A DNA stretch of 64,000 bases. Origin: Sipunculus nudus. Lineage: Eukaryota > Annelida > Sipuncula > Golfingiida > Sipunculidae. The notes beneath the pieces were generated by a model, which saw nothing but the letters and a program-made list of their open reading frames with translations, ran no database searches and had not been told where the DNA came from. The DNA is taken from NCBI GenBank assembly GCA_026874595.1, contig CM049316.1, positions 10,160,839-10,224,838 of the forward strand, given 5' to 3'. The position numbers and the translations under genes are program-made. Below are positions 2,407 through 59,230 of the stretch, in pieces (the first letter of the stretch is position 1; every line of letters starts with the position of its first letter).

Positions 2407-2410
2407 CTAC
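2407..2410. repeat. Target-site duplication CTAC, left copy
   Basis: CTAC lies directly before the first base of the left LTR and recurs at 8964-8967 directly after the right LTR. A 4-bp duplication is within the usual 4-6 bp range for gypsy-type integrases. It shows that the two LTRs belong to one insertion event. Confidence 0.8.
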
Positions 2411-2566
2411 TGTTACGGAACCTAATATAAATAGATCACGTATGCGTGATGAACACAAATTTTGTAATGGAGATAGAAAAATCAGATTCTGTAACACTAG
2501 GCAGCGTGAAATGTCTAGGGGAATGAATAAAGAAGTCAGTGGTTTTTTGTTAACAAATAACTATAA

Positions 2567-2572
2567 TTTATT
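2567..2572 (-). promoter_or_regulatory. LTR polyadenylation signal AATAAA
   Basis: TTTATT on the plus strand, AATAAA on the minus strand. It is conserved in all three LTR copies of the window, about 350 bp downstream of the TATA box, as expected for the R region of the element's RNA. Confidence 0.6.
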
Positions 2573-2927
2573 CTTAAAACAACCCTAACAATACTATACA
2601 CTAAATCAATACAATTATACAGTAAAACAGCGGTATAGCAACAAGTCAATACAATCACACAGAAAATAATGTGCACAGTACCTGGTTTCCAACACCATCA
2701 CAACGATAAGTCCTTTAAATGTAAATTCTCGGAGAATGACAGTCCAGTGTAAAGCTCTTGCAACAATCCAGAAAGTAAACTGAAGTCCAAATGCATAAAC
2801 TCCAGGAGAAAGTCTTTGAAAATCTATAATTGCCGCATTTGTCGGATAAGGTCCTAGAAACTCACACAACTCTTGCGTCCGCTGGAAAATCTTCTCTGCT
2901 CTCTGCCTGGTTCTAAAACACAGCCCC

Positions 2928-2935
2928 CTTATATA
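2928..2935 (-). promoter_or_regulatory. TATA box of the LTR promoter
   Basis: The minus strand reads TATATAAG followed by GGGGGCTGTGTTTTA. The same TATA/G-run/CTGTGTTTTA arrangement is present in the solo LTR at 26.56 kb, so it is a conserved family core promoter. It lies inside the 163-bp segment missing from the 5' LTR. Confidence 0.75.
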
Positions 2936-3221
2936 CCTTCACACCCCAAGCCGAGAATTTTCCATTTCTCGAACAGTCCATAAGATCTTGCACAACACAG
3001 TAAGTACGCGAATCGGGAATTCTCTAGAAAAACAGCGCTGTGTGTACCTCCACACACCAGGCTCATCACGTGACCTCGGCCAGGCGTGAAAACCCAAGGC
3101 TAAACATGACAACGAGAGTTCAACCAGTACGGATTAAACATAGAATGTAATACGCGGCCAGACACGAGTGCCACAACAGGAGTTACGCCCGTGTCACATA
3201 ATAAAAAGAGCACCTGTAAAA

Positions 3222-3232
3222 CTCCCCCCTAT
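3222..3232 (-). other. Polypurine tract
   Basis: The minus strand reads ATAGGGGGGAG immediately before the inner end of the 3' LTR. This is the expected place and composition for the plus-strand DNA primer of reverse transcription. Confidence 0.85.
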
Positions 3233-3236
3233 AAGA

Positions 3237-3269
3237 AAAAAGAAAGTTTTCACGGAAAACTTTCTTTTT
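3237..3269. repeat. Perfect 15-bp hairpin beside the polypurine tract
   Basis: Left arm AAAAAGAAAGTTTTC (3237-3251), loop ACG, right arm GAAAACTTTCTTTTT (3255-3269); all 15 pairs match. In the element's RNA it sits between the end of pol and the polypurine tract. Its function is not known to me. The perfect pairing in an element whose genes are broken stands out. Confidence 0.85.
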
Positions 3270-3374
3270 GCGATCACAATCTCTTAATTTTTACAACATT
3301 ATCATCTCAAAATCATCTTATTTACAACATTACATAAACATCTTGTCTACAACATTTCATAAACATCACAATAA

Positions 3375-3895
3375 GCAATCAGCAAGTACATTGTCTTTCC
3401 CTTTAATGTGCAAGATATCAAGATTGTAATCCTAAAAGAACAAACTCCATCTCAACAATCTTTGATTTTTACACCTCAACTTGACAATGATAGGCCTGAC
3501 TGATGAAGTAACATAAACTTCAAAATGTTGCAACGCCTAAATCAAAGCCAAACATTCTTTTTAAATAGTGGAGTAGTTTTTTTCTGGTTCGCATTAAACT
3601 TTCTTGAGAAATAACAAATTGGATGATCTATGCTATCATTGCCTTCTTGTAACAACACAGCACCAGCAGCAGTATCAATAGCATCCACAGCTAACTTAAA
3701 AGGTACGGAAAAGTCTGGAGCTGCTAAAACTGATGAACTTTGCAGAATTGCTTTCAAATTCTGAAATGCACTTTCACACTGAACTTTCCATACAAACTTT
3801 TGTTTCTTCTTTGACGAATTAGTCAAAGGTTCAGCTACAGCAGCAAAATTTGGACAAGACTTCCTGTAGTACCCAACCATACCAAGAAAATGCAT
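3375..3895 (-). pseudogene. Retrotransposon RNase H domain, broken
   Basis: The domain removes the RNA strand during reverse transcription. An uninterrupted stretch at 3895-3542 starts with the RT-connection motif (HFLGMVGYYRK) and contains the RNase H start, LAVDAIDTAAGAVLLQE, with the first catalytic Asp at residue 71, followed by HPICYFSRKF. The frame is then lost at the place where the family has its conserved Glu. Remnants continue in other frames to about 3375, including RWSLF and LDILHIKGKDNVLADC, the usual RNase H end. A deletion appears to have removed the segment normally holding a later catalytic Asp (around 3480). Enzymatically dead. Confidence 0.85.
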
Positions 3896-3979
3896 TATTT
3901 GCTTTTTGTTCTCTGGTCTAGGAAATGCAGAAATAGCACTTATCTTAGCACCAACAGGTTTTACCTGACCCTGCCCTAC

Positions 3980-4627
3980 AATATGCCCTAAAAATGTTAC
4001 TTGTGCATGACAAAATCAGATTTCACTAAGTTGACGGTCAGACGTGCTTCACTGAGTATTTCGAAGATGTTTCTCCCAGGTGTCGCTGTACACGATGAGG
4101 TCATCAATATATGCGTCGCAGCCCTGAATGTCCTTGACAACCATATGGATGAGGCGCTGAATTGTGGCTGGCGAGTTCTTCATGCCAAACGGCATATCTT
4201 TGTACTGGTACAGTCCTTGCGGCGTCACAAATGCGGAGACTTCTGACGCTCGATCTGTCAGCGGAACTTGCCAGAATCCTTTTAGCAAGTCAAACTTGGA
4301 GACATATCTGGAGCTACCGACTCTATCAATACAATCATCGATCCTCGGATTCGGGAACGTGTCAGTCTTGGTGACAGAGTTCAGTTTTCGATAATCTGTG
4401 CACATACGGTAACTTCCATCAGGTTTTGGCACAGGAATACATGTTGAACTCCAGTTACTGTTACTAGGTTCAATAAAATCATTGTCCAGCAAATATTGAA
4501 TCTCGTCCTTGAGATACCTTTGCTTTTCTGGATTCAGTCTATATGGATGTTGCTTGACTGCTCTTGCCTCCCCAACATGGAAGTCATGGCACAACATATT
4601 AGTTCGCGTTGTAATGTCACTAAACAA
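3980..4627 (-). pseudogene. Retrotransposon reverse transcriptase, broken at its end
   Basis: RNA-dependent DNA polymerase of the element. The open stretch 4627-4049 keeps the core: PVPKPDGSYRMCTDYRKLN (residues 66-84), motif A VSKFDLLKGFW with Asp113, motif B FGMKNSPATIQ (147-157) and motif C AYIDDLIVYSD with the catalytic YIDD (173-176). Downstream, stop TGA and two frameshifts (near 4075 and 4005) separate the palm from the thumb/connection remnant, which is still readable in the other frames up to about 3900. The catalytic residues are intact although the gene is not. Unlike in standard gypsy elements, the integrase lies upstream. Confidence 0.93.
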
Positions 4628-4663
4628 ATGCTCATAATTCCGCAGCAGGTTCTTGAGGTCTTG

Positions 4664-5234
4664 TTATTGTTGTGCGGTAAGGTGTGACAGTTTGGCATCG
4701 AGGTTTTTAAATGGAACTGTACCACACTGAATGTCTACATCACACTTACAATCAGTATCTACTTTAACTGGGTCAGGGTCAGTTTTTACACAATTTACAG
4801 CAGTAACATTTTGTACAACATCTGAGGTGCTATTTCTGTCATAATATGGTTTCAACATGTTAACATGGCACAGTTATTTCTTCTTACGTCTATCTGGTGT
4901 CAACAGTATGTAATTTAAATCACTGACTTTCTTGTCAACCATGTAAGGACCAAATTCCTAGCTTACAGAGGTCTGCCAGAAATGGGAAGTAAGGCAAGGA
5001 CCTTTTCAAAGTCCTGCTTACAGTGTGCTTGTCATACCTTGTTTTCATTTTATTTTGTGCAGATTTTAGATTTGACTTTACAATCTCACAAGCATTGTGT
5101 AGTTTAGTGCGAAAGTCTGAGACATACTGCAGTAAACTAAGAGAATTAGGATTTTCACACAAAAGTTTTTCATTAAGAAGTTTCAATAGACCTCGAATGG
5201 AGTGTCCAAAAACTAGTTCAAAGGGACTCTTCAA
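4664..5234 (-). pseudogene. Integrase C-terminal region and IN-RT linker
   Basis: Continues the integrase. 5234-4935 carries the conserved KSPFELVFGHSIRGLLKLL motif that follows the catalytic core in this group, then a helical, Lys/Arg-rich stretch ending in NKMKTRYDKH. After another frame break, 4858-4664 begins with MLKPYYDR, the usual end of the chromatin/strand-binding module in gypsy integrases, followed by an acidic linker of unknown role that leads into RT. At least two indels separate these pieces. Confidence 0.75.
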
Positions 5235-5304
5235 AAACTCTTGAAAGGATTCTCTGACAGCAAACAGCTATAGGTGGATTCCTTCATCCCAGTCTTTCTG
5301 TGTG

Positions 5305-5544
5305 TCATAGCAATAAGTCCTGATCATGTTTTAATGTCTGGTGAAAACGCTCGCGGGCGCCCTGACTTTCTGGATGGTATGGCAAAGAGCTGTACTGTTT
5401 TATACCTAGCTCAAGCATAACTTGTTGGAATAAGCCAGACATAAAAATAGACCCTTGATCAGACTGGACGGATTTTGGTAATCCTAAAGTTGTAAAAAAC
5501 TTGGTCAGTGCTTTGACAACACTTTTGGCATTAATTTTGCGCAA
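5305..5544 (-). pseudogene. Integrase catalytic core, second half
   Basis: Contains the second and third residues of the D,D(35)E triad: Asp29 in VQSDQGSIF and Glu65 in QGARERFHQTLK, exactly 35 residues apart. The preceding part of the core lies in another frame (see 5555-6250); a frameshift near 5550 separates them. The frame ends again at 5305 in the run to the C-terminal domain. Confidence 0.9.
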
Positions 5545-5554
5545 TGGTATTGTC

Positions 5555-6250
5555 TCATGGAAACTTGTAGATGATTGTCAGCAAGTATTCATGTCCAGAT
5601 TTTGTTTTGGGCAGTGGCCCAACACAATCAACAATAATCCTACTGAATGGTTCCTCGAAAGCAGGAATAGGCTTAAGTGGGGCCTTAGGAGGATTCTGAT
5701 TGGGCTTGCCTACCATCTGGCATGTATGGCATGATTTACAATATTGTACAACATCTTTCCTGAGGTTAGGCCAATAGAAGTGTGTACTAACTTTCTGATA
5801 TGTCTTATTTATACCTAAATGGCCAGACAAAGAAGTCTCATGTGCCATGCTTAGAACTTCACTGCGAAAGCTTCTGGGCATTTCTATTTGATGTTTGATG
5901 GCCGACTCATCATCAGCGCAAACTGAGTTCTGTGACAGTTCATCTTTAGAATCTTCCCTGGGAAACAAACATGAAATATCAGGGTCCTTATGCTGTTCCG
6001 AGATTAGTTCTGACCTTGAGAATGCTGTATCCTGTACGGGCGAGTCGTTAGTGACTGCCAGAGTGTTGTTATCTGGACCATTATCCTCATGTGTGTTTTT
6101 CTTGGCCATAGATCTAGTTACAGCACATGAAGGATACAAACCAGGAATTTCCTGACTTTCCAGACCAGTGTCCTGATCTAGTGACCGTTTTTCTGTCACT
6201 ATTGGTACAGGCTGTACTTTATCACCTGCAAAATCATTGCCTAGTAGCAA
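5555..6250 (-). pseudogene. Protease-IN linker, integrase zinc domain and start of core
   Basis: One 231-residue open stretch. Residues 1-50 (LLGNDFAGDKV and a later AVTRSMAKK) form the conserved join after the protease. Residues 51-125 are an acidic, poorly conserved linker. Residues 137-177 form the integrase zinc-binding domain: His137, His144, Cys174, Cys177, with HLGINKTYQKVSTHFYWP between. Asp208 in IIVDCVGPLPKT is the first catalytic Asp. The stretch ends in a frameshift just before the second half of the core. The direct run from protease into integrase, without RT between, documents the unusual domain order. Confidence 0.93.
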
Positions 6251-6255
6251 CTTTA

Positions 6256-6500
6256 TTTCCCTTAAAGGGTTAAGTAGTTCTTCTGCCCACAGTAATATTC
6301 CCAGAAATCAAACCTGACTTTAAATGGATACTGTGAAGCGGAACTGAAGTGTGCCTGTCTGAAAACACACCATTTACATGTGCATGTGCACCAGCAAAGG
6401 ACCTAATAGAAAATGGCAAAGTGTTTGCTAACATGAGAGTCTGGCCTGAACCAGTGTCCCTCAAAATTCTAATAGGGGTAGAATCTGAAAAATCACTTTA
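6256..6500 (-). pseudogene. Retrotransposon aspartic protease
   Basis: Would cleave the Gag-Pol polyprotein. The active-site motif ILRDTGSGQTL lies at about 6464-6432, and the following residues (LPFSIRSFAGAHAHV, then HLKSGLISGNITVG) fit a retropepsin fold. The flap and the second conserved motif are not clear to me. The frame is broken at about 6265, where it should run into LLGNDFAG of the next segment. Confidence 0.8.
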
Positions 6501-6613
6501 AAGTGATACAAAACCATCATGTATGAATGGCTCAAATAACTCCATTTCAGAGTCAATAGAGGAATCTACTACCTCAACCTCATCAAACAAAGAACTGACA
6601 TTGAGAGTAACAG

Positions 6614-6910
6614 TCATAAACTCTGTTTCTCAATCATCTCATCTAAGGAATCTACATCCTTTTTATCATCAAACTCCTCATGGGAGTCAACAGAGGAATT
6701 TTCCTCAGCAGAAACAAACTTCTGTTTGTCATAAAAGGACCTGGCCTCATTTAAAATACTCTCGCAAGAGTCATAAAAGGACTTAGCCTTATCCAGAGAA
6801 TACTCCTCGCAGGAGTCTTGAAAGGACCTAGCCTTATTAAATTCCTCGCAGGAATCAACTGAGGTTTTTACCCCGCAAGCCACGGATTCTTCTTTGGACT
6901 CAGACGCCAC
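6614..6910 (-). repeat. Acidic Gag-protease spacer with internal tandem repeat
   Basis: About 98 residues rich in Glu, Asp, Ser and Lys, between the zinc knuckle and the protease. Three to four diverged copies of a unit of about 15 residues are visible, each with DSCEE near its start and KARSF or EARSF near its end. In DNA they appear as repeated CTCGCAGGAGTC and AAAGGACCTAGCC blocks spaced about 45 bases apart. No known domain is recognised. The stretch is open but joined to neither neighbour in a clean frame. Confidence 0.6.
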
Positions 6911-6989
6911 CTGGGTCCCCGTAGCACCAAACTCTCTATTAGAGTCAATAAAGGAGAGCCTGGCTCTTGTACCATGCTATGCATAGATT

Positions 6990-7284
6990 TTGAAACAAAG
7001 CCAGAAGGTTTGCTATTTGGTTTATTCGCAAGTTTCCAGCAGTCAGATATTAGATGACCCTCCTTCTTACAGATTTTCTTTGAAAATGACTGGTCTTTCT
7101 TGGACTTAGACACAGTGGACGTGGACTGAGATGTAGCAATGGACTTTGCTGAACTATCAGGACTACTAGTACTGGGTGACTGCGCTTTTATTTTCTTTTG
7201 ACCATACTTATTTACATTCTTGTTTGTGAATGACTGGTTTGATTTGCTAATAAAGGACATTTTTTTGTGTTGATGAATAATCAT
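6990..7284 (-). pseudogene. Gag nucleocapsid region with damaged zinc knuckle
   Basis: A Lys/Ser/Thr-rich basic segment followed by ICKKEGHLISDCWKL. Cys72, His77 and Cys82 of a CX2CX4HX4C knuckle are present, but the first Cys is replaced by Lys (residue 69). Such knuckles bind the genomic RNA during packaging; with one ligand missing this one should be impaired. It sits between the Gag capsid remnant and the acidic spacer. Confidence 0.75.
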
Positions 7285-7289
7285 CAGCT

Positions 7290-7700
7290 AATTGAGCAGC
7301 AATGTCAAGTGTTTCAGGACTTTGCTCATCGAGAAAAGTTTTAACATCTGCATTAATGCAGCGCTTAAACTCTTCAAGCAAAATCAACTGGCGCAAATTG
7401 TCATAATCTTTCATTACATTTTAGAACTAAACCAGCGGTCAAACAACCGCTCTTTTGTCCTAGCAAATTCGACGTAGGTCTGTTCTTTGCGCTTTTTCCA
7501 ATTTCTAAATTTCTGGCGGTAAGCCTTTGGAACTAACTCATAAACTTTCAGGATCAACCGTTTTACCAGGTCATAGTCAGCAGCAGCTTCTACTGAAAGC
7601 TCTGTATCAATTTCTGTGGCCTTGCCAGTCAGTACACTTTGTAACAACTTAGTCGAATTCTTAGGCCATTTTAAATTTTCAGCTACCTTCTCAAAGTGTA
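7290..7700 (-). pseudogene. Gag capsid-like domain (SCAN-like), frameshifted
   Basis: The open stretch 7647-7414 reads LVKRLILKVYELVPKAYRQKFRNWKK...YVEFARTKERLFDRWF, the helical signature of the gypsy Gag capsid, related to vertebrate SCAN domains. Capsid remnants continue in another frame towards 7290 (a FKRCINADVKTFLDEQSPET-like run). Frame breaks occur on both sides, near 7400 and in 7650-7830. Confidence 0.75.
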
Positions 7701-7834
7701 AGAAATATTTATCAACCTCTTTTTCTTGAAAAGGTGGGACAAGTCTAATGTGTTTAGTAACATCAAAACTGTGAGTTGGGGCAGCACTTGGACTACGTTT
7801 TACTTTAAGACTTTCTAACTCCAGTCGTTTTAAC

Positions 7835-8161
7835 TCAATTTCTTTTTTCTTTTTCTAGTCTGTCTCTTTCTATTTCTTTTTCTAGTCTTTCTCTTTCTAA
7901 CCGTTCTTCCCTCTCTTTTAATGCTAGCTCATGTTGCATTCCCAACTTTTTTAATTCTAATGTTTCAACTTCAGTCTCTTCAATTAAACCTTTGCTAATA
8001 AGATCTTGCATGATTTTAGCAATGATATCAGGCTCTCTCAAAGCTTTTTTCACACTTAGCCCCAAGTGTTGTCCCAAACGCAGCAACTGTTCTTTTGACA
8101 ACTGTTCAAGTTGATCAGGGTCGGGATCGTCCACAAATGTCTCAGGTTTGAAATCTGCCAT
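7835..8161 (-). pseudogene. Gag N-terminal part, truncated by frameshift
   Basis: Starts at ATG 8161, about 170 bases downstream of the inner end of the 5' LTR, with MADFKPETFVDDPDPDQLEQL. Residues 15-60 form a small helical domain (LSKEQLLRLGQHLGLSVKK). Residues 65-108 are a Glu/Arg/Leu-rich coiled coil with repeated RLE/KE. The stretch then runs into a stop at 7835 inside this repetitive purine-rich tract (TTTCTAGTCT repeats on the plus strand), a likely site for slippage. Confidence 0.8.
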
Positions 8162-8304
8162 GTTAAGATGTCAAAACAATAATAAAAAACCACTGAGATA
8201 ATTCCTGTAAACAATGTACTGTAAACAATATGTAATCTGGTAAACAATGTATGATAAAACAACGTGTCCAGGTCAAGGCCTAATAAATTTGAAAACTATT
8301 CAAC

Positions 8305-8323
8305 ATCCCGACTAGAGCCCCCA
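8305..8323 (-). other. Primer-binding site, tRNA-Pro-like
   Basis: Six bases inside the 5' LTR the minus strand reads TGGGGGCTCTAGTCGGGAT. The first nine bases (TGGGGGCTC) and the final GGGAT match the 3' end complement of eukaryotic tRNA-Pro; the middle is diverged. It would prime minus-strand DNA synthesis. Confidence 0.65.
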
Positions 8324-8329
8324 ATTTTA

Positions 8330-8963
8330 TGTTACGGAACCTAATATAAACATATCACGTATGCGTGATGAACACAAATTTTGTAATGGAGATTAAAAAA
8401 AATTAGATTCTGTAACACTAGGCATCGTGAAATGTCTAGGGGAATGAATAAAGAAGTCAGTGGTCAGTGTTAACAAATAACTATAATTTATTCTTAAAAC
8501 AACCCTAACAATACAATACACTAAATCAATACAATTATACAGTAAAACAGCGGTATAGCAACAAGTCAATACAATCACACAGAAAATAATGTGCACAGTA
8601 CCTGGTTTCCAACACCATCACAACGATAAGTCCTTTAAATGTAAACTCTCGGAGAATGACAGTCCAGTGTAAAGCTCTTGCAACAATCCAGAAAGTAAAC
8701 TGAAGTCCAAATGCATAAACTCCAGGAGAACAGTCCATAAGATCTTGCACAACACAGCAAGTACGCGTATCGGGAATTCTCTAGAAAAACAGCGCTGTGT
8801 GTATCTCTACATACCAGGCTCATCACGTGACCTCGACCAGGCGTGAAAACCCAAGGCTAAACATGACAACGAGAGTTCAAGCAGTACGGATTAAACATAG
8901 AATGAAATACGCGGCCAGACACGAGTGCCACAACAGGAGTTAATAAAAAGAGCACCTGTAACA
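8330..8963 (-). repeat. 5' LTR with internal deletion removing its promoter
   Basis: About 634 bp, bounded by TGTTACGG and CTGTAACA, which gives perfect 6-bp terminal inverted repeats (TGTTAC/GTAACA). Against the 3' LTR it lacks 163 bp (counterpart of 2811-2973) with GAA microhomology at the join, and a further 15 bp near its right end. The larger deletion removes the TATA box and start region, so this LTR should not drive transcription of the element. Confidence 0.93.
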
Positions 8964-8967
8964 CTAC
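8964..8967. repeat. Target-site duplication CTAC, right copy
   Basis: Matches 2407-2410 exactly and abuts the last base (CA) of the right LTR. Confidence 0.8.
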
Positions 8968-26022: not shown

Positions 26023-26850
26023 TGTTACGGAACTTATATCAACAGATCACGTATGTGTGATGAACATAAATTTTGTAATGGAAAAAAATCAGATTCTGTA
26101 ACACTTAGCAGCGTGAAATGTCTAGGGAAATGAATGAAGAAGTCAGTGGATTTTTGTTAACAAATAACTATAATTTATTCTTAAAACAACCCTAACATTA
26201 CAATACAATGACACAGTATAACAGCAGTATAACAGCAAATCAATACAATCACACAGTAAAAAAACAAACTGCACAGTACCTGGATACCACCACTGTCACA
26301 GCGATAAGTCCTTTAAAATGTGGAGGCAGTTCACAAAAATTCTCTCGGAGAATAACAGTCTAATCAATGTAAAGCTCTAATTACAATCCCGAAAGTAAAC
26401 TGAAGACTAAATAAGATTCGTCACAACTTCAGAAGAAAATCTGAAGAAAATCTTTAATTACCGTACTTATCGGAATAGGTCCCACCAACTGACATACACG
26501 CTTCTGTGTCCGCTGAAATATTCTCTCACCTCTCTCTCTCGGCTTTAAAACACAGCCCCCTATTTATAACTTCTCACCTCCAGCCGAGAACCTTCCATTG
26601 CTCGAACAATCTAAAGAATCTAACACAGTACACACGTTCAAAGAACATACCAGAACAAACAACGCTGTGTATCTAGGGTTCAACCTATGCGGATTAAACC
26701 AAGCCTGCACCGTCCGGCCAGGCGAGGCCGCCACAACACGAGCTACGCGTGGCACACAAACAAAATGCCAACAACACATGGAACATCCGTGTGCACAATA
26801 AAACAAATCATCTGTAAGACCGCTGCACAAAATAAAAGGGGCACCATGTA
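26023..26850 (-). mobile_element. Solo LTR of the same retrotransposon family
   Basis: Begins TGTTACGG and follows the LTR at 2411-3221 along its whole length with more differences than the two LTRs of the full element show between themselves. No gag or pol sequence is attached. It keeps the TATA box and the AATAAA signal (about 26.17 kb). The right end is uncertain (26845-26851) because the expected GTAACA end is mutated; ATGT lies just outside on both sides and may be the target duplication. Best explained by recombination between the LTRs of an older copy. Confidence 0.9.
26561..26568 (-). promoter_or_regulatory. TATA box in the solo LTR
   Basis: The minus strand reads TATAAATA followed by GGGGGCTGTGTTTTA, matching the promoter block of the 3' LTR at 2.93 kb. 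If active, it would transcribe leftward into the flank below 26.02 kb. Confidence 0.55.
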
Positions 26851-35015: not shown

Positions 35016-37787
35016 ATGTTTAAGGAAATGGAGATCGTTAAGAAAATGGTGAATGGAGTAGCCTGCAACACTTCAGTTGCAGTTATCTATACCACCTGTT
35101 TCAATCATTTAGGAGTTATCTATACCACCTGTTTCAATCATGTAGGAGTTATCTATACCACCTGTTCCAATCATTTAGGAGTTATCTATACCACCTGTTT
35201 CAATCATTTAGGAGTTATCTTTACCACCTGTTTCAATCATTTAGGAGTTATCTATACCACCTGTTCCAATCATTTAGGAGTTATCTATACCATCTGTTTC
35301 AATCATTTAGGAGTTATCTATACCACTTGTTTCAATCATTTAGGAGTTATCTATACCACCTGTTTCAATCATATAGGAGTTATCTATACCACCTGTTCCA
35401 ATCATTTAGGAGTTATCTATACCACCTGTTCCAATCATTTAGGAGTTATCTATACCACCTGTTCCAATCATTTAGGAGTTATCTATACCACCTGTTCCAA
35501 TCATTTAGGAGTTATCTATACCACCTGTTCCAATCATTTAGGAGTTATCTATACCACCTGTTTCAATCATATAGGAGTTATCTATACCACCTGTTCCAAT
35601 CATTTAGGAGTTATCTATACCACCTGTTCCAATCATTTAGGAGTTATCTATACCACCTGTTCCAATCATTTAGGAGTTATCTATACCACCTGTTCCAATC
35701 ATTTAGGAGTTATCTATACCACCTGTTTCAATCATATAGGAGTTATCTATACCACCTGTTTCAATCATTTAGGAGTTATCTATACCACCTGTTTCAATCA
35801 TTTAGGAGTTATCTATACCACCTGTTCCAATCATTTAGGAGTTATCTATACCACCTGTTCCAATCATTTAGGAGTTATCTTTACCACCTGTTTCAATCAT
35901 ATAGGAGTTATCTATACCACCTGTTTCAATCATTTAGGAGCTATCTATACCACCTGTTTCAATCATTTAGGAGTTATCTATACCACCTGTTCCAATCATT
36001 TAGGAGTTATCTATACCACCTGTTCCAATCATTTAGGAGTTATCTATACCACCTGTTTCAATCATATTGGAGTTATCTATACCACCTGTTTCAATCATTT
36101 AGGAGTTATCTATACCACCTGTTTCAATCATTTAGGAGTTATCTATACCACCTGTTCCAATCATTTAGGAGTTATCTATACCACCTGTTTCAATCATTTA
36201 GGAGTTATCTATACCACCTGTTCCAATCATTTAGGAGTTATCTATACCACCTGTTTCAATCATTTAGGAGTTATCTATACCACCTGTTCCAATCATTTAG
36301 GAGTTATCTATACCACCTGTTTCAATCATATAGGAGTTATCTATACCACCTGTTCCAATCATTTAGGAGTTATCTATACCACCTGTTTCAATCATTTAGG
36401 AGTTATCTATACCACCTGTTCCAATCATTTAGGAGTTATCTATACCACCTGTTCCAATCATTTAGGAGTTATCTATACCACCTGTTTCAATCATTTAGGA
36501 GTTATCTATACTACCTGTTCCAATCATTTAGGAGTTATCTATACCACCTGTTCCAATCATTTAGGAGTTATCTATACCACCTGTTCCAATCATTTAGGAG
36601 TTATCTATACCACCTGTTCCAATCATTTAGGAGTTATCTATACCACCTGTTTCAATCATATAGGAGTTATCTATACCACCTGTTCCAATCATTTAGGAGT
36701 TATCTATACCACCTGTTTCAATCATTTAGGAGTTATCTATACCACCTGTTCCAATCATTTAGGAGTTATCTATACCACCTGTTCCAATCATTTAGGAGTT
36801 ATCTATACCACCTGTTCCAATCATTTAGGAGTTATCTATACCACCTGTTCCAATCATTTAGGAGTTATCTATAACACCTGTTCCAATCATTTAGGAGTTA
36901 TCTTTACCACCTGTTCCAATCATTTAGGAGTTATCTATACCACCTGTTTCAATCATTTAGGAGTTATCTATACTACCTGTTCCAATCATTTAGGAGTTAT
37001 CTATACCACCTGTTCCAATCATTTAGGAGTTATCTATACCACCTGTTCCAATCATTTAGGAGTTATCTATACCACCTGTTCCAATCATTTAGGAGTTATC
37101 TATACCACCTGTTTCAATCATTTAGGAGTTATCTATACCACCTGTTCCAATCATTTAGGAGTTATCTATACCACCTGTTTCAATCATTTAGGAGTTATCT
37201 ATACCACCTGTTTCAATCATTTAGGAGTTATCTATACCACCTGTTCCAATCATTTAGGAGTTATCTATACCACCTGTTCCAATCATTTAGGAGTTATCTA
37301 TACCACCTGTTTCAATCATTTAGGAGTTATCTATACCACCTGTTCCAATCATTTAGGAGTTATCTATACCACCTGTTCCAATCATTTAGGAGTTATCTGT
37401 ACCACCTGTTTCAATCATTTAGGAGTTATCTATACCACCTGTTCCAATCATTTAGGAGTTATCTATACCACCTGTTTCAATCATGTAGGAGTTATCTATA
37501 CCACCTGTTCCAATCATTTAGGAGTTATCTATAACACCTGTTTCAATCATTTAGGAGTTATCTTTACCACCTGTTTCAATCATTTAGGAGTTATCTATAC
37601 CACCTGTTCCAATCATTTAGGAGTTATCTATACCATCTGTTTCAATCATTTAGGAGTTATCTATACCACTTGTTTCAATCATTTAGGAGTTATCTATACC
37701 ACCTGTTCCAATCATTTAGGAGTAATCTATACCACCTGTTCCAATCATTTAGGAGTTATCTATACCACCTGTTCCAAAATAATTTAG
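35016..37787 (+). other. 923-codon open frame through the minisatellite, probably non-coding
   Basis: Starts with 22 non-repeat residues (MFKEMEIVKKMVNGVACNTSVA) and then reads 82 copies of VIYTTC(F/S)NH(L/I/V)G before a 2-bp indel ends it. There is no signal peptide, known domain or splice context. Two of the three plus frames are open, and the second gives an FRSYLYHLFQS repeat. Most unit differences change the amino acid (F/S, L/I/V, Y/F, T/I, T/N), with few silent changes, the reverse of what protein selection produces. I therefore treat the frame as a by-product of a 33-bp unit lacking stops. Only expression data could overturn this. Confidence 0.85.
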
Positions 37788-38621
37788 GAGTTATCTATAA
37801 CACCTGTTTCAATCATTTAGGAGTTATCTTTACCACCTGTTTCAATCATTTAGGAGTAATCTATACCACCTGTTCCAATCATATAGGAGTTATCTATACC
37901 ACCTGTTTCAATCATTTAGGAGTTATCTATACCACCTGTTCCAATCATTTAGGAGTTATCTATACCACCTGTTTCAATCATTTAGGAGTTATCTATACCA
38001 CCTGTTCCAATCATTTAGGAGTTATCTGTACCACCTGTTTCAATCATTTAGGAGTTATCTATACCACCTGTTCCAATCATTTAGGAGTTATCTGTACCAC
38101 CTGTTTCAATCATTTAGGAGTTATCTATACCACCTGTATCAATCATTTAGGAGTTATCTGTAACACCTGTATCAATCATTTAGGAGTTATCTATACTACC
38201 TGTTTCAATCATTTAGGAGTTATCTATACCACCTGTTCCAATCATTTAGGAGTTATCTATACCACCTGTTTCAATCATATAGGAGTTATCTATACCACCT
38301 GTTTCAATCATTTAGGAGTTATCAATACCACCTGTTCCAATCATTTAGGAGTTAACTATACCACCTGTTTCAATCATTTAGGAGTTATCTATAACACCTG
38401 TTTCAATCATTTAGGAGTTATCTATACCACCTGTTTCAATCATTTAGGAGTTATCTATACCATCTGTTTCAATCATTTAGGAGTTATCTATACCACCTGT
38501 TTCAATCATTTAGGAGTTATATATACCCCCTGTTTCAATCATTAATGATTTAGGAGTTATCTTTACCACCTGTTTCAATCATTTAGGAGTTATCTTTACC
38601 ACCTGTTTCAATCATTTAGGA
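35082..38621 (+). repeat. 33-bp minisatellite, about 107 units
   Basis: A 3,540-bp tandem array with very low divergence between units. Each unit contains TTATCT, four bases, then CACCTG, then TTTCAATCA or TTCCAATCA, and ends TTTAGGA. Variation is concentrated at a few positions: TTC/TCC in the middle, TTA/ATA/GTA near the end, and rare changes elsewhere. Phase is kept except for a +2-bp insertion near 37,778 and a longer one near 38,545. Variant order shows higher-order structure: a five-unit pattern at about 35.73-36.17 kb, and a seven-unit block near the start that recurs exactly 71 units (2,343 bp) later. The units contain no CpG. Confidence 0.98.
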
Positions 38622-39924
38622 ATTGTATATACAACATGGTGGCTGTACTTCAATAATTATAGTTACGATTTTAAACAAACTCGTCATGTTTACCGATACC
38701 TTCTGACCAGGTTATAACGGGACTCATGAGAGCCTACCATGGTGTTCTTTGTAGCTCTGAATAGATCTTAGCAACACCCGATTTATATTAATGCGTGGTT
38801 TGTTACCTCGCAACAGAGTCATTTGTTCATGTGCATTTCAAACTTTCACAGTTACACAGGTGTGTAAAAAAAACCAATAGCTCTCGTGCCGTGAATAAGT
38901 CACTGCGGCTACGGCATTACCCGTTAATTCCTCACGGTTGGGGTTTCATGAGTTAACTTCCACCCTAGACACATACCAATAAATGGCCAAGGATCACCCG
39001 GGACAATAACATGGCCCTAATGACAATGGCATATCATTTGAGTAAAAATATACTTGGATGATTAATTTAACGTCAAAATATTCAGGGATTCTTCCTTGGG
39101 GAAAAATTAAATTATTTGAGACATTGCTTAATATTCAGAAAGCTTCATTAATTAAGTACAATTAGCGTCTGAGTTGCTACTGCTTGCAACAAAAGAAATC
39201 GCCTTTATGTTTTTTCTGTTTAGATTACTTACACACTCCTGAGGGTTGAAGTGTTTAAGATTCGACTTTGGGTTTAATAAATTTACCTATTGTCGTTTTT
39301 AACAATGTATGGTATTTTGCGGTCATAAAATGGAAATTATGATAATTTAATTGTCTCATGACGTCATTTGTGAAAACATAAAGACATTGGTTTGACAAAT
39401 AAATGATATAATGTCTTTCGTGGAAATTTAAATGTACCCAACTTCCAGAAACGCGTAGAAGCAAATTTCTATTAAAGAAAGTATATACGTGTAAGGTATG
39501 CATAGTCGTTTACGATGCGGTAACTTCTGGTACCTATACCGGGGTGAATGGTTACTGCCTCCGTGGTACATTCATTCTGGCGTTACCAAATGAAATATTT
39601 TAAGCGGTGAATATTTCTGCGCAGGTTAAATTACATGTATAAGATTTGATATACATGCAAGTACTGTCAGTATAGTATTTATTATGCCGTTTTTATAAGA
39701 CTGCCAGCAAGCAACATATCCCACGCATTTATCAAGGTACATTTATCATGAAGTCCCATAATGACTACATGAAAGCAACACGCTGCTTTAAGTTTTTTTT
39801 TAGAAATGGAATTCATCAGACTTTCGGGATTCGGATCTGCGAGCGATAAATAAAGGCCAGTTCCCCCTCCTTTACACCACCATGGCTAAAAGTCATACCT
39901 GTTAATGCTTCCTTAATTAAGTGT

Positions 39925-58235: not shown

Positions 58236-59101
58236 TGCTTGTTATTTGTTTAATTTCTGCATGCGTCTTTGAGATTAGTGGAGATCGTTAGATTCAATGT
58301 ATCTGATCAGATGACAACTACAATGCATTTAAATTTTACCCTCAAACTTTTTTTCTCAAGAATACCCCTGGCATCGCGCGCGTAAACACACACACGCAGC
58401 TGAAAACATGGTTTTGTACACGAATATTTATATCTATAAAGTCAAACAAACAAACCCACTAGCGGATCCTAGTGGCCAATTCCAATGGCTCGACAGAACG
58501 GATAAAAGGTATACATGTTATCCCTGATGCATAAAACTGAATGATATCAATATGAAGAATGCAACTATTTTTGCTGTTAATGAAAATCGGAGATCCCTAT
58601 TCCACTGTGAATCAGCCCACTTTATATAGGAACCAGCGCAGCGACTTAACGATCACATTAGTGACGCCGGAGTGCTATCTACTACATGTGTTGGCACAGC
58701 GACTTTGCTTGTAGCAGGGAGAACTGATGGTCTTTTATAGTGTGCCGCATATAATGAGTGATGTTGAGTGATGTATAAATAGCCAAGCTGGATCTTTAGT
58801 ATACAGAGAATGCACAGCAAAGTCGGATCAGTCCGTGTGGGAATCCTGTCTTCTTCTTTTAGAAACAAATGTTACGATAACATTTTACTGAACTGTTCTT
58901 GATTTGAAGTGTGTCCTCTCAAAAGTAAAAGTGTAAATCCAGCAGTCCATCTACCTATGTTTTACCGGCCGATTTTATTTCGAATTTCGTCAAATCAATT
59001 ATATTTCGAGAAACTCGTTTGAAAAAAAATTGAAAAAAATCGGCGTGGGCAAAGTGTGAACATGGGAGAGACATTTGTAGGATTGTCGGACATCTTGCTG
59101 T

Positions 59102-59230
59102 TGTTTTGTCCTCTGTTTGATGGTGTTTTGTCCTCTGTTTGATGGTGTTTTGTCCTCTGTTTGATGGTGTTTTGTCCCATGTTTGATGGTGTTTTTTTCC
59201 TCTGTTCGATCGTGTTTTGTCCTCTGTTTT
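59102..59230. repeat. 22-bp tandem repeat, about six units
   Basis: The unit contains TGTTTTGTCCTCTG and TTTGATGG. The first three units are nearly identical and the last ones diverge. All three minus frames stay open across it and read QRTKHHQTEDKTPSN-like strings, a repeat artefact. It abuts the start of the dispersed-family copy at 59.23 kb. Confidence 0.95.

Follow-up and report, generated by a model that had tools for sequence, protein, structure and literature searches.

The Gmr1 clade of Ty3/gypsy long terminal repeat (LTR) retrotransposons, with Gmr1 of Gadus morhua (Butler 2001; Goodwin and Poulter 2002), is described as combining gypsy-type domains and a SCAN-like gag with the order protease (PR), integrase (IN), reverse transcriptase (RT) and RNase H. 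Its pufferfish members are given as 6.1-6.5 kb long (PMC11117352). Decapod GyRex4, Gychoro2, GyMaja1 and GyLiva4 are presented as the first Gmr1-like elements in protostomes (PMC3587641, 2013), and an annelid Gmr1-like family, LGF3, has been reported since (PMC8220671, 2021); another study (PMC8556966) reports no Gmr1 clade in its own annelids. In molluscs, a survey distinguishes 21 Gypsy clades, with Gmr1 missing from its table and mentioned once as background (PMC6238403), and no later report of Gmr1 in molluscs appeared among the matches listed from the open-access literature searched, which misses most subscription papers. The present analysis concerns a window of 64,000 nucleotides from Sipunculus nudus (GenBank assembly GCA_026874595.1, contig CM049316.1, positions 10,160,839 to 10,224,838). 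At positions 2411-8963, its minus strand carries a 6.55-kb Ty3/gypsy LTR retrotransposon, similar in length to the pufferfish elements, whose anatomy, domain order, decay and kin could be observed directly. It is very probably a degenerate insertion of a Gmr1-type Ty3/gypsy LTR retrotransposon.

Read along the minus strand, the element is ordered gag, PR, IN, RT, RNase H, LTR. Its coding parts, searched against Pfam as unjoined stop-to-stop pieces with E-values up to 0.1, are the following:

7835..8170, minus strand: N-terminal piece of gag, with tblastn matches in other copies
7414..7854, minus strand: gag, with the first half of a SCAN-like domain at its end (Pfam SCAN, 0.0019, positions 2-37, below cut-off)
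7247..7420, minus strand: second half of the SCAN-like capsid domain (Pfam SCAN, 8.1e-6, positions 42-88 of 90; 26 bits, below the cut-off of 27)
6868..7287, minus strand: gag zinc knuckle region (Pfam zf-CCHC_2, 0.0019)
6614..6976, minus strand: linker from zinc knuckle to protease, no Pfam match
6270..6497, minus strand: protease with DTGS near 6457, by motif, no Pfam match
5555..6307, minus strand: single open reading frame (ORF) with protease tail (LLGND), integrase zinc domain and first D of the integrase core (Integrase_H2C2, 3.8e-24)
5305..5577, minus strand: integrase core with second D and E (Pfam rve, 1.9e-7; 31.7 bits, just under the cut-off of 32.6)
4935..5267, minus strand: C-terminal part of integrase, with tblastn matches in other copies
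4664..4873, minus strand: C-terminal end of integrase (HVNMLKPYY) and linker into RT, in the RT frame, no Pfam match
4049..4663, minus strand: reverse transcriptase, YIDD near 4.1 kb (Pfam RVT_1, 2.5e-26)
3542..4015, minus strand: RT connection and first half of RNase H (Pfam RT_RNaseH_2, 1.9e-20)
3347..3536, minus strand: decayed RNase H C-terminus, recognised by eye, no Pfam match

In the integrase, the spacing from second D to E is 35 residues, as read from the translations. Pfam pieces and motifs thus bear out the order of the initial annotation (protease, integrase zinc domain, DD35E, RT with YIDD, RNase H), and its description of gypsy-like motifs in a copia-like arrangement is upheld by the Pfam families and the domain positions. 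The SCAN-like gag, absent from that annotation, is a feature reported for Gmr1 elements (PMC4131045, PMC3424704, PMC4592553). The window copy therefore unites an integrase upstream of RT, an RT, RNase H and integrase of Ty3/gypsy type, and a SCAN-like capsid domain, as expected of a Gmr1 element. Yeast Ty3 has homologous RT and integrase but differs in placing integrase after RT and RNase H. Elements of Ty1/copia are alike in domain order, so that a copia element might have been misread as gypsy, but their RT comes from another sequence family: the matches are to RVT_1, RT_RNaseH_2 and Integrase_H2C2, and the closest solved relative of the window RT is that of Ty3. RVT_2, which we take to be the copia-type RT family, is absent from the Pfam search of the window. 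A copia identity was ruled out on the Pfam families and the Ty3-like RT, and has practically no probability left. The copy is heavily decayed, with many frame changes among its coding pieces, a frameshift that divides the SCAN-like domain into halves in successive frames, and an RNase H broken after its first half. About 125 bp remain between the RNase H remnants and the 3' LTR. The window copy is dead and can no longer make its proteins.

The four hallmarks of LTR retrotransposons, LTRs, target site duplication (TSD), primer binding site (PBS) and polypurine tract, are all present:

2407..2410: left-hand CTAC of the target site duplication, by sequence
2411..3221, minus strand: 3' LTR of 811 bp, mutated at its inner end (GTAAAA instead of GTAACA)
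3222..3230, minus strand: polypurine tract AGGGGGGAG, adjoining the 3' LTR
8305..8323, minus strand: primer binding site TGGGGGCTCTAGTCGGGAT, presumably of tRNA-Pro type, 6 nt from the 5' LTR
8330..8963, minus strand: 5' LTR of 634 bp with two deletions
8964..8967: right-hand CTAC of the target site duplication
26023..26850, minus strand: another, diverged LTR belonging to this family (77% identical); right end approximate, probably solo

The LTR termini at 2411 and 8963 are exact (TGTTAC...GTAACA), and with CTAC on both sides the clear LTRs and target duplication claimed for this copy proved correct. The two LTRs differ by 19 substitutions in 632 aligned bases (3.0% divergence; Kimura two-parameter distance, K2P, 0.031). 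Two segments of the 3' LTR, of 163 bp and 15 bp, are missing from the 5' LTR, which most likely lost the longer one, because it is also found in the third LTR at 26023. That LTR (26023-26850) apparently lacks an inner region. The exact purine tract GGGGGGAGT recurs in two of the 20 other copies analysed below (L016, L021), and exact TGGGGGCTC adjoins an LTR end in eight of the 20. In three of these eight (L009, L011, L028) the primer binding site reads TGGGGGCTCGTCCGGGAT, which we take to be the murine leukaemia virus site for tRNA-Pro.

Frame changes between the PR, IN and RT pieces of a broken copy could suggest that rearrangement or a nested insertion moved the integrase in this copy only. 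The genome (1.43 Gb, with the window on contig C11) was searched for relatives. Scoring of 150 of 7,666 first-look candidates for the window RT gave 150 matches, those besides the window being 84-92% identical. Twenty copies were taken from the 149 other listed matches, spread over the ranking with more from its top, and their domain order was mapped by matching them against pieces of the window element itself. All 20 carry their integrase pieces upstream of RT and in the same orientation, and none of the 20 has integrase downstream of RT within the approximately 2.2 kb covered; the canonical gypsy arrangement, with integrase downstream of RNase H, is found neither in the window element nor in these copies. 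Protease was seen ahead of integrase in 17 copies and RNase H downstream in 19. One copy (L012) has a natural 565-aa ORF in which the integrase C-terminal domain (137-180) is followed by RVT_1 (324-482), and in another (L022) the zinc, core and C-terminal domains of integrase share one ORF. LTR matches flank ten of the 20 copies, with K2P of 0.023-0.068 in seven pairs (at least 380 aligned columns) and 0.057-0.076 in the other three (69-199 columns); for two of these ten a script detected TG/CA ends together with a 4-bp TSD (CATG, ACGT). Because all 20 copies share the order and natural ORFs cross the IN-RT junction, in L012 as well as in the more distant L130 treated next, the order is no local rearrangement. 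That explanation was ruled out and deserves virtually no credence. Chance was likewise rejected.

A search of the genome with Ty3 RT, in which 150 of 7,066 candidates were scored, separated 78 matches with at least 45% identity to Ty3 (high class) from 72 with at most 43% (low class). Six stretches were examined: L126-L129, for which canonical order was anticipated, and L130 and L131, as suspected integrase-first elements. The high-class L126, L127 and L128 carry RT, RNase H and then integrase; their domains are homologous to those of the window family and their order differs from it. L129, L130 and L131 all belong to the low class. L130 represents a second lineage, 57-61% identical to the window family in RT and 55-62% in integrase; a single 648-aa ORF holds its integrase zinc domain, core and C-terminus followed by RT, and the two halves match Ty3 in opposite order (IN at 1088-1457, RT at 582-763). 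In L131, a third lineage, integrase zinc domain and core precede RT and then, by eye, an RNase H-type ORF. L129, by eye kin of L131, starts within an apparent integrase C-terminus, after which RT and RNase H share one ORF; no integrase-like ORF of at least 70 aa occurs in the 1.5 kb after it. The genome thus appears to hold two further diverged integrase-first lineages, L130 and L129/L131, the latter with a SCAN place upstream of L131.

Phylogenetic trees were built from nine RT rows and eight IN rows, with no named Gmr1 element included. Both are small. Less than half of the IN columns are occupied in the rows of the window and L127, long branches lead to Ty3 and L127 in the IN tree, and the third lineage is represented by different copies taken as one, L129 for RT and L131 for IN. 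The window family and L130 group together in both (RT 100/98, IN 95/95), which supports one shared history of RT and IN for these two. The doubts that the initial annotation had raised against itself, RT and integrase falling into different clades and an order peculiar to one rearranged copy, were dispelled, and the relatives of like order that it had sought in the same genome are there, with natural ORFs across the IN-RT junction in L012 and L130.

A further alternative is that a separate gypsy lineage gained the integrase-first order independently, its likeness to Gmr1 being convergent. The presence of several diverged integrase-first lineages in one genome would fit this, as would the position of L131 apart from the other integrase-first rows in the IN tree and the RT of L129, which is as near to canonical rows (40-43% identity) as to integrase-first rows (36-42%). 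Against it, a grouping of all integrase-first rows, absent from the best IN tree, is not rejected there (approximately unbiased test, p-AU 0.45), and the RT tree favours it (90/92, not starred); a SCAN place lies upstream of the L131 RT as well; and in frogs SCAN is reported in over half of Gmr elements and in Gmr elements only (PMC4131045). We consider convergence improbable for the window family, and L129/L131 might be a second origin of the order.

The distribution of SCAN also bears on the Gmr1-type reading. A genome search with PF02023 placed all of the 150 scored candidates (of 2,198) above the Pfam cut-off; the same profile was found in none of 14 control genomes, the eight named among them being prokaryotes. 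Other copies, unlike the window copy, possess a whole SCAN domain above the cut-off. At least ten of the 72 low-class RTs, L131 included, have a listed SCAN place 0.5-5 kb upstream on the same strand, versus 0 of the 78 high-class RTs among the matches listed, a zero that is not proof. RT and SCAN matches fall on contigs C1-C17 (64-111 Mb where size is given). Published work traces SCAN to gag in a Gmr1-like element (PMC3424704, PMC4592553, PMC3406341), and the SCAN capsid is reported to have given rise to the SCAN zinc-finger family of vertebrates (PMC3424704, PMC4592553).

Several points weigh against the Gmr1-type assignment. The window protease has no profile match and is identified by its DTGS and LLGND motifs; the rve match and both SCAN halves of this copy stay below the curated cut-offs, as does the zf-CCHC_2 knuckle. 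Unrelated families also appear at E<=0.1 (FRB_dom 0.049, COG3_C 0.036, Secretin_N 0.023), and because of these three the first SCAN half would be weak evidence by itself; the putative SCAN assignment is carried by the second half (8.1e-6) and by the whole domain in other copies. Compared with solved structures, the gag piece showed no convincing relative (best heparanase, E 0.14), and the L022 integrase scored slightly higher against foamy-virus integrase (120 bits) than against that of Ty3 (109 bits). The name Gmr1 itself is a putative assignment from domain order, SCAN gag and published descriptions, the features by which the window family is likened to Gmr1 elements. Outside relatives were found neither in viral contigs scanned with RT, IN core, an IN motif pattern and an RT alignment with Ty3, nor in prokaryote genome contigs scanned with the IN motif.

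From this anatomy and from known LTR elements we infer how intact relatives would replicate. Their RNA would be transcribed from the LTR and enclosed in a shell of gag proteins that contain the SCAN-like capsid domain. Reverse transcription would be primed by tRNA-Pro at the PBS, with copying by RT/RNase H and plus-strand priming at the purine tract, and integrase would insert the product with a 4-bp target duplication. Integrase would precede RT in the polyprotein, an order that need not alter the reaction, because protease would release both enzymes.

Other observations were made in the window and the assembly. At 35081-38632 a 33-bp unit is repeated 107 times (95% matches, no indels), with open frames of 928, 610 and 336 aa; the frames are long because 33 is a multiple of three, and the array is probably a minisatellite, not a gene. 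A second tandem array at 59095-59229 (22-bp unit, about six copies) lies in a 148-aa open frame with no Pfam match. On the side of the host, one muscle myosin exon reached 194.1 bits with squid, 193.0 with cardiac myosin-6, 192.8 with scallop, 183.7 with tarantula and 177.3 with fly (species taken from entry codes), scores that argue against an arthropod and for little beyond that. Several similar copies of one exon region in this gene look like the alternative exons of muscle myosin in protostomes, whereas a second exon came from an unconventional myosin and was uninformative. The mollusc haemocyanin family PF14830 gave no match, a negative that does not demonstrate absence. A COX1 search of the assembly gave 11 matches, nine on the eight contigs C60-C62, C66, C72, C74, C75 and C89; of the other two, one lies on C123 and the other, a fragment of 51 aa, on C5. 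The COX1 genes on those eight contigs and C123 (L039-L045) are uninterrupted and bacterial in look; C61, C62 and C89 measure 2.0-3.3 Mb, and the closest listed prokaryote to the COX1 of C61 is an Oligoflexia metagenome-assembled genome, 58% identical (among the best 80 of 589). Identification of C123 as the mitochondrion was dropped; this 112-kb contig has a 489-aa frame without standard stops and was read as bacterial. The COX1-bearing contigs are perhaps bacterial partners of the host.

The novelty of the element is modest, as both the group and its presence in protostomes were already published. The decapod elements and LGF3 resemble the window family, by description only, in being Gmr1-like and in protostomes; GyRex4 is described from RT/RNase H, whereas a single genome here provides three lineages as well as entire copies that include LTRs, TSD and PBS. 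The value for host range put forward in the initial annotation is smaller than suggested, given the decapod and annelid reports cited above. It is possible, and we propose it tentatively, that in this lophotrochozoan host integrase-first gypsy elements form at least three diverged, many-copy lineages, with SCAN in at least two cases, and that they are an old, diversified bilaterian radiation, not a small deuterostome clade, which was overlooked by surveys of RT/RNase H only. Gmr1-type copies beside canonical gypsy elements in one genome can serve to test the number of origins of the integrase-first order, and the same set of copies to test whether the SCAN capsid goes with that order.

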